A DNA stretch of 64,000 nucleotides from Jilunia laotingensis (lineage in GTDB: Bacteria > Bacteroidota > Bacteroidia > Bacteroidales > Bacteroidaceae): positions 62,001-126,000 of the forward strand of contig NZ_JACRTF010000001.1 of assembly GCF_014385165.1 (NCBI RefSeq). The letters run 5' to 3'. Shown piece by piece: positions 6,612 through 29,879 of the stretch. Below the pieces are notes generated by a model that worked only from the letters and a program-made list of their open reading frames with translations, was not told where the DNA came from and searched no databases. The position numbers and the translations under genes are program-made. Position 1 is the first letter of the stretch. Every line of letters begins with the position of its first letter.

Positions 6612-7512
6612 ATCATAAAAAGAATAATTTTATAAATCCCCTTGATTAAGAGAAAATACATTACACGGCTCACACCTTTAAATGCCGCCATTTTCCCGGC
6701 TCCGAGGAACACATTGAAGGCCACCGATGAACGCCCTCTTCCTCACCGATGAACACCCTCCTCATCACCGAGGAACACCTCCTTCATCACCGAGGTAAAA
6801 CAGGCTTTTATTTCACCTGATAATCAACCATTTAAATTATCATCTTTTCAACGATAGGTTATTTGCATCATGCACTTATGAGCAGGAACAATCGATAAAT
6901 GATATTTACATTCAATAATAAAAGACAAATATCTTATGTAAATCCGCGAATAAAATATCGGCCCACTTAAATACCAATATTTTATAAACAACTTCCTTCT
7001 ACTTATTTGGGCAAATAGAAACAGCTCATAGAAGAGCTAGTATCAATATTGAAAAAATTTAAGTTGCTATTTCAAGGCATTGTCATAAACAATGTTAATA
7101 CAATATAGGATTACAGTTTTTACGGCTATTTATTTTGGTTTCTTTAAAATAAATATGTAAATTGCAAGCAATGATTGATTTCATTACTCTCTAAAGTTCG
7201 AAAGTTAAAGATATGTTTAAAATTGAGATGCTATTATTTTGAATAAACATCATTAATTCTAAAACAGATCTATATCGCAAATATTGTTTAATGTATTTTA
7301 ATTTCAGGCATTATGTTATATTTTATTTCACATATGGCTAAGAAATTAAATCTAATTGGAAAAAATAATTTCAATTAGTTTATCCCCTCTAATAACATTT
7401 CTTGCAAATATATTAGTGGGGATTGTAGTATTCACTCACTACAAAATTTGAATTATTTCAAATAGATGACAATATTCCATATATTATTTACAACATCTTA
7501 ATATTTGCAAAT
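6612..7512. other. Long AT-rich intergenic stretch with a 22-bp repeat array
   Basis: About 900 bases without a convincing gene. The first 200 bases hold the 22-bp-period array (see the separate entry). From about 6800 on the sequence is strongly AT-rich with no open frame of note. A small hairpin lies near 7023-7038 (AGCTC/GAGCT). Confidence 0.7.
6700..6809. repeat. 22-bp-period intergenic repeat array, core CACCGATGAAC
   Basis: Five cores start at 6700, 6722, 6744, 6766 and 6788, exactly 22 bases apart: CTCCGAGGAAC, CACCGATGAAC, CACCGATGAAC, CACCGAGGAAC and CACCGAGGTAA. The intervening 11 bases are C/T-rich and only partly conserved. Because 22 is not a multiple of three, the array does not code a peptide repeat. 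A related array in the opposite orientation lies at 28446-28533. Confidence 0.8.
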
Positions 7513-8295
7513 ATGAAAAAAATATTATTCAGTAAATCACAGGTATTTGTTTTTTATCTTTCTTTGTTAGTGTGTTTTGGGGCTTGTAAAGGCAGTGACG
7601 ATGAATTAAAAACATCAAAAGAAAACTTATTTAATAATACAATAAATATTTCAACTTATTCTGATAACGATATAGAGATTCTGTCCGATAGATATGCTAC
7701 TTTATTTGAAGGAATATACAACGCCATATTGGAAGAAAAAAAACGAATTTCAAATTTAGGATCAAATATTTCCTCTGAAGATTATCTTATACAATATGCG
7801 ACAAATTATATAAACAGCTTAACATCTGAAGAACAAGCTTTTATTTCGCATATGTTTTCTGAACCATCAGAATTTAGTCGAAAAGAACGCTATGTGTTTA
7901 TGGGATTTATAAAGTCAATAGAGCCATTAATCTTTGAAAAAGATGAGGATAAATTAGCAGACGAGATTGATGCTTTTTATAATCGTACAATCTATAAATC
8001 ATTCGATTTGTCTTCTAGGCAAGAAATGAAATTAAGACTTGAATCCTTAAAAAAGGTAAGGTATGTTATTATAAATGGTATAAATGAATTTGTACGAGAT
8101 AATAATCATATTTCAAGAATATCACCGGGTGACAGAATGATCTGGAGCCAGTCGGTGTCTATGTTAACCAAAGATCAGGTACATCTATTAATAGATGTGA
8201 CTTTTGTGGGTGTGGGTTTTATGGCAACGGGATATACTAATACTATGATTTCAATAGCAACAACGATTCATGCAATTTGGTTGTGTTTTAGTTAA
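7513..8295 (+). CDS. Orphan surface-type lipoprotein, unknown function
   Basis: 260 residues, not recognised. A signal peptide (hydrophobic 11-23) ends in a lipobox FGAC with lipid cysteine near residue 25, followed by KGSDDE, an acidic stretch that often marks export to the cell surface in Bacteroidetes. The body is helical and charged with repeated Ser/Glu/Lys, without Cys or known motifs. The last 35 residues are hydrophobic and glycine-rich (FVGVGFMATGYTNTMISIAT), like a transmembrane hairpin, unusual for a lipoprotein. The gene is isolated in an AT-rich stretch with about 900 bases before and 425 after it, and its base composition differs from the neighbouring operons, suggesting acquisition. 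Confidence 0.7.
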   Translation: MKKILFSKSQVFVFYLSLLVCFGACKGSDDELKTSKENLFNNTINISTYSDNDIEILSDRYATLFEGIYNAILEEKKRISNLGSNISSEDYLIQYATNYINSLTSEEQAFISHMFSEPSEFSRKERYVFMGFIKSIEPLIFEKDEDKLADEIDAFYNRTIYKSFDLSSRQEMKLRLESLKKVRYVIINGINEFVRDNNHISRISPGDRMIWSQSVSMLTKDQVHLLIDVTFVGVGFMATGYTNTMISIATTIHAIWLCFS

Positions 8296-23487: not shown

Positions 23488-23607
23488 AACTATTAATAGT
23501 CATCGCGTTGGATATTAAAGGCCGGCAGAGTGGATATTAATATCCAGCACGATAGCTATTAATCACTAGTAAACCGAATATTAATAGGGATCGTGAAGGA
23601 TATAGTT
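23488..23607. repeat. 22-bp-period intergenic repeat array, core TATTAAT
   Basis: TATTAAT or a one-base variant starts at 23491, 23513, 23535, 23557 and 23579, exactly 22 bases apart, and a partial TATAGTT follows at 23601. The 15 bases between cores are unrelated to each other. This constant spacing with variable fill is the same geometry as the arrays at 6700 and 28446, but with a different core. Confidence 0.75.
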
Positions 23608-28020: not shown

Positions 28021-28100
28021 TGCGATGATACGTTTTCTTAATATATACTACAGAACGTATTAAAAGCAGGAAAAGTTCTTTGCAGGAAACGAAATGGGAT

Positions 28101-28108
28101 TATCTTTG
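28101..28108 (+). promoter_or_regulatory. Promoter -7 box ahead of the glycosylase remnant
   Basis: TATCTTTG fits TAnnTTTG, 49 bases before the remnant's ATG at 28158. It may be left over from the intact gene. Confidence 0.45.
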
Positions 28109-28157
28109 CACGCATGAAAGCGAAAAACGCTACTGCATCCCTAAAAAAACTCTTGCC

Positions 28158-28265
28158 ATGATTGAAGCACCCGAAGCCCGTTACCTGACCGAACAGTTGA
28201 GTCACCTTGTAAAAGGTAACTACCTCTAAGGCAGTATTTATCACTGCCGGGGTGCCAGCAATTAA
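28158..28265 (+). pseudogene. Fpg/Nei-type DNA glycosylase remnant
   Basis: The frame begins MIEAPEARYLTEQLSHLVKG, like the N terminus of Bacteroidetes formamidopyrimidine-DNA glycosylases (MIExPEA, with the catalytic Pro shifted to follow the Glu). After NYL and an in-frame TAA at 28227 the same frame continues GSIYHCRGAS, which resembles the C-terminal zinc-finger end YLGGSIYYCPGCQ of the same family. A full gene is about 250 codons, so about 200 codons are missing between the two ends. This looks like an old internal deletion plus a nonsense change. The call rests on two short matches. Confidence 0.5.
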
Positions 28266-28445
28266 GCAATAATCTGTAAAAGCCGATCCTTTCCTGACAG
28301 AAAGATCAAAAATACACCTATTTCCTAACATAGACTTTTAAATAAAACTCCAGATAAATAGCCCTCTTCTCTTCCGGATGAAATAATATGCAAGAAAGGA
28401 CAGAGAAAAGGTTATAAATATACGGTAAAGATAGATTCATATACC

Positions 28446-28533
28446 CTTCATCGGTGAGCAACTGTCTCTTCATCGGTAAGCAACCGTCCCTTCATCGGTG
28501 AGCAACCGCCCCTTCATCGGTGAGGAAGTAGTC
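28446..28533. repeat. 22-bp-period intergenic repeat array, inverted CACCGATGAAG
   Basis: Four units start at 28446, 28468, 28490 and 28512, exactly 22 bases apart, each with the core CTTCATCGGT(G/A)AG. Read on the minus strand the core is CACCGATGAAG, nearly that of the array at 6700. The fill between cores is more conserved here (GCAACnGnCC). An extra, inverted single core (CACCGAAGAG) lies just after, near 28540. Confidence 0.8.
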
Positions 28534-28901
28534 GAACATCACCGAAGAGATGCTTGAGAAGTCATCAGTAGACAGAAACAGGACTATTTTTCTCCAGTCG
28601 TCCGATAAGAACGACCGATTTTAAAGCAACAAAAAGATCGGAGAATAGCAAGTTTCGCATCTTTTATCAGCAAAATACGAAACATGCCCAATGATATGCG
28701 CACCAAACGGACATTCGGTTTCCTTTTTAATATTCCACTATTTAAAATAGAGTGAGTTTTTCAAACTTATCAACCAAAGGCACGGAAAAATGTTATCTAT
28801 AAGCGATAGAAAATACAAATTGTCATTTTGACCAATCTCCCTGGTTAAGTTTAAAAAGAAAATATGTATCTTTACATCCCACAATAAAATTAAGAAGTCA
28901 A

Positions 28902-29879
28902 ATGAAACCTATACGTACCAACTATATCATCGGATTTGCGCTTGCCCTCTGTGCCGGAGCCGCCATTCCTTTCCTCATCGGCAGCATTCAGCCCGGTGAG
29001 CCTCATTCCATCAAATCCGAAGTACCCTATTGCGTCACTCCTCCCAGCGTACCGGAAGAGGCAGTATTTGACGGGAAAACCATCGATCTGCGCCGCTACG
29101 ACCGTCATGAACGGATGGACAGGGAAATGATGGCTTTCACCTATATGCATTCCACTACCATGTTAATGCTGAAACGCGCCAACCGGTATTTCCCTGTCAT
29201 CGAACCTATATTGAAGGCTAACGGCATTCCGGACGATTTCAAATATCTCATGGTCATCGAAAGTAGCCTTAATCCCATCGCCCGCTCCCCGTCGGGAGCC
29301 GCTGGACTATGGCAGATCATGCCCGCCACCGGTCGTGAATTCGGACTTGAAGTAAACGATAACGTAGATGAACGTTATAATATAAGGAAAGCCACCATGG
29401 CCGCCTGCGATTACTTCAAACAGGCTTATGCCAAATATGGCGACTGGATATCCGTTTCCGCTGCCTATAATGCTGGCCAAGGCCGCATCTCCACCGAATT
29501 GGATAAACAACTGGCAGATCATGCAATGGATCTCTGGCTTGTGGAAGAGACTTCCCGTTACATGTTCCGCCTGTTGGCTGCAAAAGAGATATTCAACAAC
29601 CCACAGCGGTACGGTTTTCTTCTGAAACGGGAACATTTGTATCCACAAATACCTTATAAGGAAGTAATTGTGGACACCGAAATAGCCAATCTGGACGAAT
29701 ATGCCCAGCAAAACGGAATCACTTATGCCCAACTTCGTGATGCGAATCCTTGGCTCCGCGCCCATTCGTTAAAGAACAAAAGCGGGAAACGGTATGTTAT
29801 CCATATACCGACGCAGGAAGGCATGAACTATAACCCGAAAAAGACAGTTCCGCACAACCCGAAGTGGGTGATTGATTAG
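28902..29879 (+). CDS. Lytic transglycosylase (GH23, MltD-like)
   Basis: 325 residues. An N-terminal hydrophobic segment (10-28) is a signal anchor. The transglycosylase SLT domain has YLMVIESSLNPIARSPSGAAGLWQIMPATGREFGL with the catalytic Glu near residue 123, then YNAGQGRIS. The C-terminal part (about 255-315), IANLDEYAQQNGITYAQLRDANPWL, resembles a LysM-like peptidoglycan-binding unit. It cleaves peptidoglycan glycan strands to 1,6-anhydro ends in the periplasm. TATCTTTA at 28866 may be its weaker promoter. The stop overlaps the upstream extension of the next frame, not its chosen ATG. Confidence 0.92.
   Translation: MKPIRTNYIIGFALALCAGAAIPFLIGSIQPGEPHSIKSEVPYCVTPPSVPEEAVFDGKTIDLRRYDRHERMDREMMAFTYMHSTTMLMLKRANRYFPVIEPILKANGIPDDFKYLMVIESSLNPIARSPSGAAGLWQIMPATGREFGLEVNDNVDERYNIRKATMAACDYFKQAYAKYGDWISVSAAYNAGQGRISTELDKQLADHAMDLWLVEETSRYMFRLLAAKEIFNNPQRYGFLLKREHLYPQIPYKEVIVDTEIANLDEYAQQNGITYAQLRDANPWLRAHSLKNKSGKRYVIHIPTQEGMNYNPKKTVPHNPKWVID

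Follow-up and report, generated by a model that had tools for sequence, protein, structure and literature searches.

Phased arrays of near-palindromic 22-bp sites are dispersed between the genes of many Bacteroides chromosomes

REPs are 20-40 bp long and are tagged GTAG or CGTC. The arrays reported below resemble REP and BIME sequences, which the portions of two papers drawn on here describe as palindromic, intergenic, protein-binding units of alternating orientation (PMC2817692, PMC3733652), protein binding being putative in our case. The nearest published relative that we found is BrickBuilt of P. gingivalis, and the part of the BrickBuilt paper used here states that 22-nt tandem repeats had previously been noted in P. 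gingivalis W83 (PMC4596501). As described in the same part, BrickBuilt elements are, like our arrays, dispersed and non-coding intergenic sequences of Bacteroidales, and they too are built of short units in head-to-tail order, each unit having a conserved portion and a variable one, with stem-loops predicted (PMC4596501). The PINSR repeat of Prevotella intermedia is likewise lineage-specific, intergenic, dispersed, non-coding and without terminal inverted repeats in the part of its description used here (PMC4755523). No description of the present arrays was found in the open-access literature searched, subscription papers being mostly outside its scope.

The repeat that led to this family lies at 28.4 kb of a 64,000-nucleotide stretch of DNA, hereafter the window (Table 1). 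A sequence-only reading had placed four units there at exact 22-bp spacing, and this was borne out: CTTCATCGGT(G/A)AG recurs at 28446, 28468, 28490 and 28512, with CTTCATCGGTGAG perfect at 28446, 28490 and 28512 and a single mismatch (TAAG) at 28468. Allowing up to two mismatches, a search with CTTCATCGGTGAG gave eight matches on both strands of the window compared with 1.11 expected, a count reached by none of 100 shuffles, and the two-unit pattern gave five matches compared with a shuffled mean of 0.00. TRF recovered the array at 28444-28524 (period 22, 3.7 copies, score 134) and a sister array at 6722-6793 (period 22, 3.3 copies, score 102), whose core is the reverse complement of the 28.4-kb core, as the earlier reading had seen; a weak fifth unit of the sister array may occupy 6695-6716. 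The same reading had counted three phased arrays in the 64 kb, one of them at 23.5 kb. This last array was absent from the TRF output, and it was substantiated with a different core by TATTAA, which occurs five times in exact 22-bp steps (23491, 23513, 23535, 23557 and 23579; expected 0.00). A motif-free test of four-unit periodicity at lags 14-35 yielded two far outliers, both at lag 22 (28444, z 9.0; 6707, z 7.8). At this lag 23498 ranked third with z 4.9, compared with z 5.4 for the top place at any other lag (lag 32), and the TATTAA spacing is better evidence for the 23.5-kb array than the lag test. The 28.4-kb repeat was confirmed to be real and not a product of chance.

Table 1. Phased arrays and an adjoining candidate unit in the window
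Feature	Position	Strand	Details
28.4-kb array, four 22-bp units	28447..28534	+	centre GGT at 28447, 28469, 28491, 28513
Possible degenerate fifth unit, in register	28535..28556	-	centre ACC; AACATCACCGAAGAGATG; proposed from sequence only
Sister array, four units	6717..6804	-	+ strand centre ACC; TRF, pattern search
Third array, five 22-bp units	23488..23597	.	core TATTAA; one unit is the palindrome GGATATTAATATCC

The SLT-domain protein encoded at 28902-29879 of the window (Pfam) had a best match of 84% among 158 Bacteroides genomes, and therefore the species of the window lies outside this set. Rfam matched the Bacteroidales small SRP in the window, which assigns this DNA to the Bacteroidales; two further matches near 28.1 and 28.4 kb were under their gathering scores and were judged to be chance. 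Window positions 28100-28900 had no match in plasmids. About 190 bp before the array, two short stretches at 28158-28258 correspond to both ends of a gene that is intact in relatives (L104 601-1467; Pfam H2TH domain of formamidopyrimidine-DNA glycosylase), with the middle absent from the window.

Each unit of the family consists of a 15-bp pseudo-palindromic core, TTCCTC-(GGT or ACC)-GAGGAA, and a 7-nt variable spacer. The consensus of 342 GGT-oriented units read G-TTCCTC-GGT-G-N-(G/C)-GAA-C, then a variable stretch. The GTTCCTCGGTG half was stronger than the other half (NNGAAC), with C6 at 99% and G10 at 97%, percentages that are partly circular because the units were chosen by matrix and by GGT. 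A unit flipped about its centre keeps register, and arrays mix orientations (for example --++, ---+ and -+++). Unit number peaks at four. When the centre was ignored, and after removal of 132 duplicates and one edge case, four units were found in 35 of 59 arrays, three in 11, five in eight, two in three, and six and seven in one each (range 2-7). With a GGT-trained matrix, four units were found in 46 of 79 arrays, three in 19, two in nine, one in three and five in two, three further loci being too weak to score. Several three-unit arrays had an adjoining in-register unit of the TTTAAAACCAA type.

Across 84,980 species genomes, the two-unit pattern identified 58 stretches: 29 in Bacteroides (14 of them in B. 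heparinolyticus), two in Porphyromonas uenonis and 27 in other taxa, 10 of which we take to be other Bacteroidota. With up to three mismatches, the pattern matched 54, 46, 31, 24, 43, 49 and 35 times in seven genomes (six Bacteroides and one P. uenonis), compared with 0, 0, 1, 2, 0, 0 and 0 matches of a reversed-pattern control in the same order. A sequence-only profile (R1), built from 26 arrays, matched at least 43 of the 158 Bacteroides genomes (E 1e-4) and at least two of 393 sampled Bacteroidales (E 1e-5), both within the Bacteroides set; these counts are lower bounds because few candidates were scored per genome (27 genus-wide in Bacteroides, 11 order-wide in Bacteroidales) and strict filters were applied in both searches. 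Full searches of four relatives at E 0.1, counting both strands, gave 29 matches in G053, 40 in G043, 11 in G020 and 0 in G027. G043 and G053 are the nearest relatives by one protein, and many of their centres are GTA or TAC. The complete B. xylanisolvens chromosome carries about 35 array loci. In P. uenonis and B. faecis, 22-bp arrays also occur whose spacer resembles GAAACTNNAGTTTC; profile R1 represents them poorly.

Arrays of related 22-bp units that resemble TTCATNNNNNTGAAACTNNAGT, often more than four of them, were seen at L046 (B. faecis) and at L050 and L056 (P. uenonis). A lag-22 stretch at about 160-270 of L097 (B. faecis; 29 of 40 matches, palindrome TTCACGTACGTGAA) may share this architecture, with a core that differs again. 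Carriage by phages was rejected, as by eye none of three pattern matches in viral contigs was a four-unit array of this kind. The family is one of dispersed, intergenic, near-palindromic 22-bp sites in many Bacteroides chromosomes, and the earlier proposal of several core types with a common 22-bp period was supported (GGT/ACC, GTA/TAC, TTTAAAA and TATTAA).

Among 50 non-orthologous arrays, 49 had callable flanks, and on the basis of mechanically called ORFs 26 lay in tandem, 16 in convergent and seven in divergent gaps. Distances of 50 bp or less were found on 18 of 58 3' sides and on three of 40 5' sides (Fisher p 0.006); arrays often lie just 3' of stop codons. Regulation specific to a gene family was rejected: no Pfam family occurred in more than two of 38 or more than two of 29 flanking proteins, which together comprised 65 of the 98 flanking ORFs plus two from the window. 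The sequence-only reading had pointed to one array in each orientation, and a meaning in this found no support, as unit centres flip within arrays and between orthologous loci. Comparison of net orientation with the replication fork and with neighbouring genes, which it had also proposed, revealed no bias for the fork (20 versus 21 arrays) and no preferred strand between tandem genes (8 versus 6 arrays). A replication-linked role was rejected: there was no strand bias, and the loci, merged by hand, were evenly distributed along two chromosomes (G019, 39 loci, KS p 0.26 and 0.98; G001, 35 loci, KS p 0.20 and 0.67).

Cores changed more slowly than their surroundings. In 15 orthologous array pairs, cores were identical at 789 of 870 positions (91%), spacers at 305 of 406 (75%), intergenic flanks at 1633 of 2063 (79%) and coding flanks at 7659 of 9009; Fisher p was 1e-12 for core versus spacer and 4e-15 for core versus intergenic flank, in pairs that are not independent and in a set biased to conserved arrays because the profile found it. 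The profile or the pattern had first located the arrays, and their flanks then served to recognise the pairs. The contrast between core and spacer is the same at a locus whose orthologues came from a 1.1-kb DNA query (core 60/60, 53/60 and 51/60; spacer 24/28, 16/28 and 17/28; flanks 110/129, 80/129 and 81/129 identical). Among 64 orthologous units, the centre was flipped in three and otherwise changed in four, and a simple way for the flips to arise would be inversion between the short inverted arms. Since flips in register occur both within arrays and between orthologous units, orientation seems to matter little.

The presence of arrays across Bacteroides is patchy. At two sites, each compared in 30 orthologous places, a four-unit array was present in five and three places and none was found in 25 and 27. 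Most of these orthologous places do without an array, so no single array is essential. Occupancy at both sites was all or none; empty sites were about 150-190 bp shorter and lacked an obvious target duplication, and inspection by eye revealed no terminal repeats. At the first site, the array was missing in a genome with 90% identical flanks and present in two genomes with 79%. A whole-locus scan around orthologues of the window SLT gene found a GGT-type array within 1.5 kb in none of 30 loci.

Some arrays lie within longer repeats (L191/L194, 88.6% identity over 536 bp; L189/L195, 93.1% over 421 bp), and two unrelated loci in the same genome carry nearly identical arrays (L226/L232, 94.7% over 75 bp). 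Flanking sequences differed from one array group to another. In B. xylanisolvens, the array lies mid-way in dispersed repeats of up to 536 bp aligned (L186, L187, L191, L192, L194, L197 and L189/L195), the left side being TGCATA-rich and TTTTCTCTAGTTT standing on the right in several. At L009, L034, L044 and L055 (B. heparinolyticus) and at L160, a hairpin of the ACCCC...GGGGTA type directly adjoins the array, and therefore array and hairpin together form a larger repeat.

Slow-changing, orientation-tolerant, helically phased sites with free spacers would have the look of clustered binding sites. We tentatively favour, at somewhat less than an even chance, a dispersed and phased cluster of protein-binding sites with a suggested role as boundaries where transcription units end. 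In this model, each 22-bp unit would be one site, in which GTTCCTCGGTG is the strong half and NNGAAC the weaker one, with a variable spacer in addition, and usually four such sites would be spaced about two helical turns apart. Because of this spacing, dimers of one putative DNA-binding protein could sit adjacent on one face of the DNA, so that several would lie side by side on an array. Protein binding is suggested by the slower change of cores than of surrounding DNA, and the strict centre, conserved arms and variable spacer are consistent with it. The location after stop codons and in convergent and tandem gaps suggests the boundary role, which might be that of a roadblock, a topological insulator or a protector of mRNA 3' ends, as for BIMEs. 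We infer the binding, its cooperativity and any boundary role from arrays that are BIME-like in position, not in sequence. Against protein binding stand the lack of any match in G027 even in the laxer search, the 115 of 158 genomes without a profile match, the many empty orthologous places at the two sites above, and the weak complementarity of spacers 1-2 and 3-4 together with the strong folds of L263 and L034, which would fit a hairpin instead.

The position just past stop codons would also suit an array that acts as RNA: stem-loops clustered in a 3' UTR or between cistrons could stabilise, process or attenuate the transcript. We consider such a role improbable. Folding of 10 strands gave z values of -15.2 (L263), -7.9 (L034), -4.0 (L178), -3.1 (L183) and -2.5 (L228), and both strands of the 6.7-kb array scored low (-2.3 and -2.7). 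Spacers 1-2 and 3-4 were weakly complementary (p 0.005-0.025) in 28 arrays, chosen by clustering to represent 69 distinct four-unit arrays that include some other core types and one Verrucomicrobiales record, and this complementarity keeps a hairpin alive. However, the fold of the 28.4-kb array itself did not surpass that of most shuffles (z -1.4 and +1.0 for its two strands), no Rfam family fell at an array, terminator-like sites in the two gaps that hold the 28.4-kb and 6.7-kb arrays lay away from the arrays, and a preferred strand between tandem genes was lacking. Nor did the arms covary: every measure was at or below the shuffled mean in 26 arrays, and the excess or deficit per pair was at most 0.07 in 342 units (z -3.5 to +4.1). 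RNA stems were rejected as the constraint, since neither the hairpins centred on units nor those centred on spacers covaried when counted. Also rejected were a long hairpin (units 1-4 and 2-3), striking in L263 and weak over the 28 representatives, and an intrinsic terminator, as a scan of the 28.4-kb and 6.7-kb arrays found no stem with a T-run at either.

Two further explanations concern the origin of the arrays. A neutral minisatellite arising from replication slippage would account for the exact period and for the likeness of the 28.4-kb units (2, 1, 1 and 7 differences from their own consensus); it was already disfavoured and is very unlikely, given that many other arrays have diverged units flipped in register, that unit number clusters at four and that cores are slower to change than spacers. 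An array might also be the conspicuous portion of a MITE-like or BrickBuilt-like element that is mobile but not autonomous; a mobilising enzyme would then recognise the units, which would have no host function. Dispersed copies, the longer repeats around some arrays, all-or-none occupancy and the L226/L232 pair are consistent with mobility, which as a full explanation we regard as unlikely: empty sites lack an obvious target duplication, flanks differ among array groups and cores are conserved in place across species. Mobilisation by Y1 transposases (PF01797, the family searched) was rejected, as these were present in four of 15 array-carrying and three of 15 other genomes. A mobile-element origin is compatible with the binding of a protein to the arrays and may explain their dispersal.

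Extending the preferred reading of phased protein-binding sites, the arrays could represent an undescribed class of 22-bp landing pads, usually with four sites, where a dedicated protein would act as an architectural factor or insulator. In this possible though doubtful proposal, cores vary by lineage (GGT, GTA, TTTAAAA and TATTAA) and the 22-bp architecture is kept, as if site and protein co-evolved. Should the arrays serve as binding platforms, gut Bacteroides would possess a widespread system, regulatory or architectural, that was found neither in Rfam nor in the papers searched, and the short tandem repeats of 22 bp between Bacteroides genes would be accounted for.

Comparison with known systems sets the family apart in several respects. 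A CRISPR array was rejected on repeat architecture, a 15-bp core with a 7-nt spacer here versus longer repeats with unique spacers. PINSR is a 188-bp repeat with 177 and 184 copies, for which the part of the paper drawn on here describes no 22-bp architecture (PMC4755523). According to the corresponding part of the BrickBuilt paper (PMC4596501), its unit is 23 nt compared with 22 here, elements have from 1 to 22.8 units compared with usually four, and a leader, a tail and IS5-like terminal repeats are present, none of which was seen here, where flanks differ between array groups and two empty or occupied sites revealed no terminal repeats by eye; the authors' BLAST placed BrickBuilt in P. gingivalis and P. 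gulae. This distinction is drawn from the description, not from the unit sequence. In contrast to REP and BIME sequences with a RAYT, the present arrays show no association with a Y1 transposase. They share with REPs and BIMEs palindromic intergenic units in both orientations near gene 3' ends, and differ from them by a 22-bp unit, a CGGTG/CACCG centre and strict 22-bp phasing.
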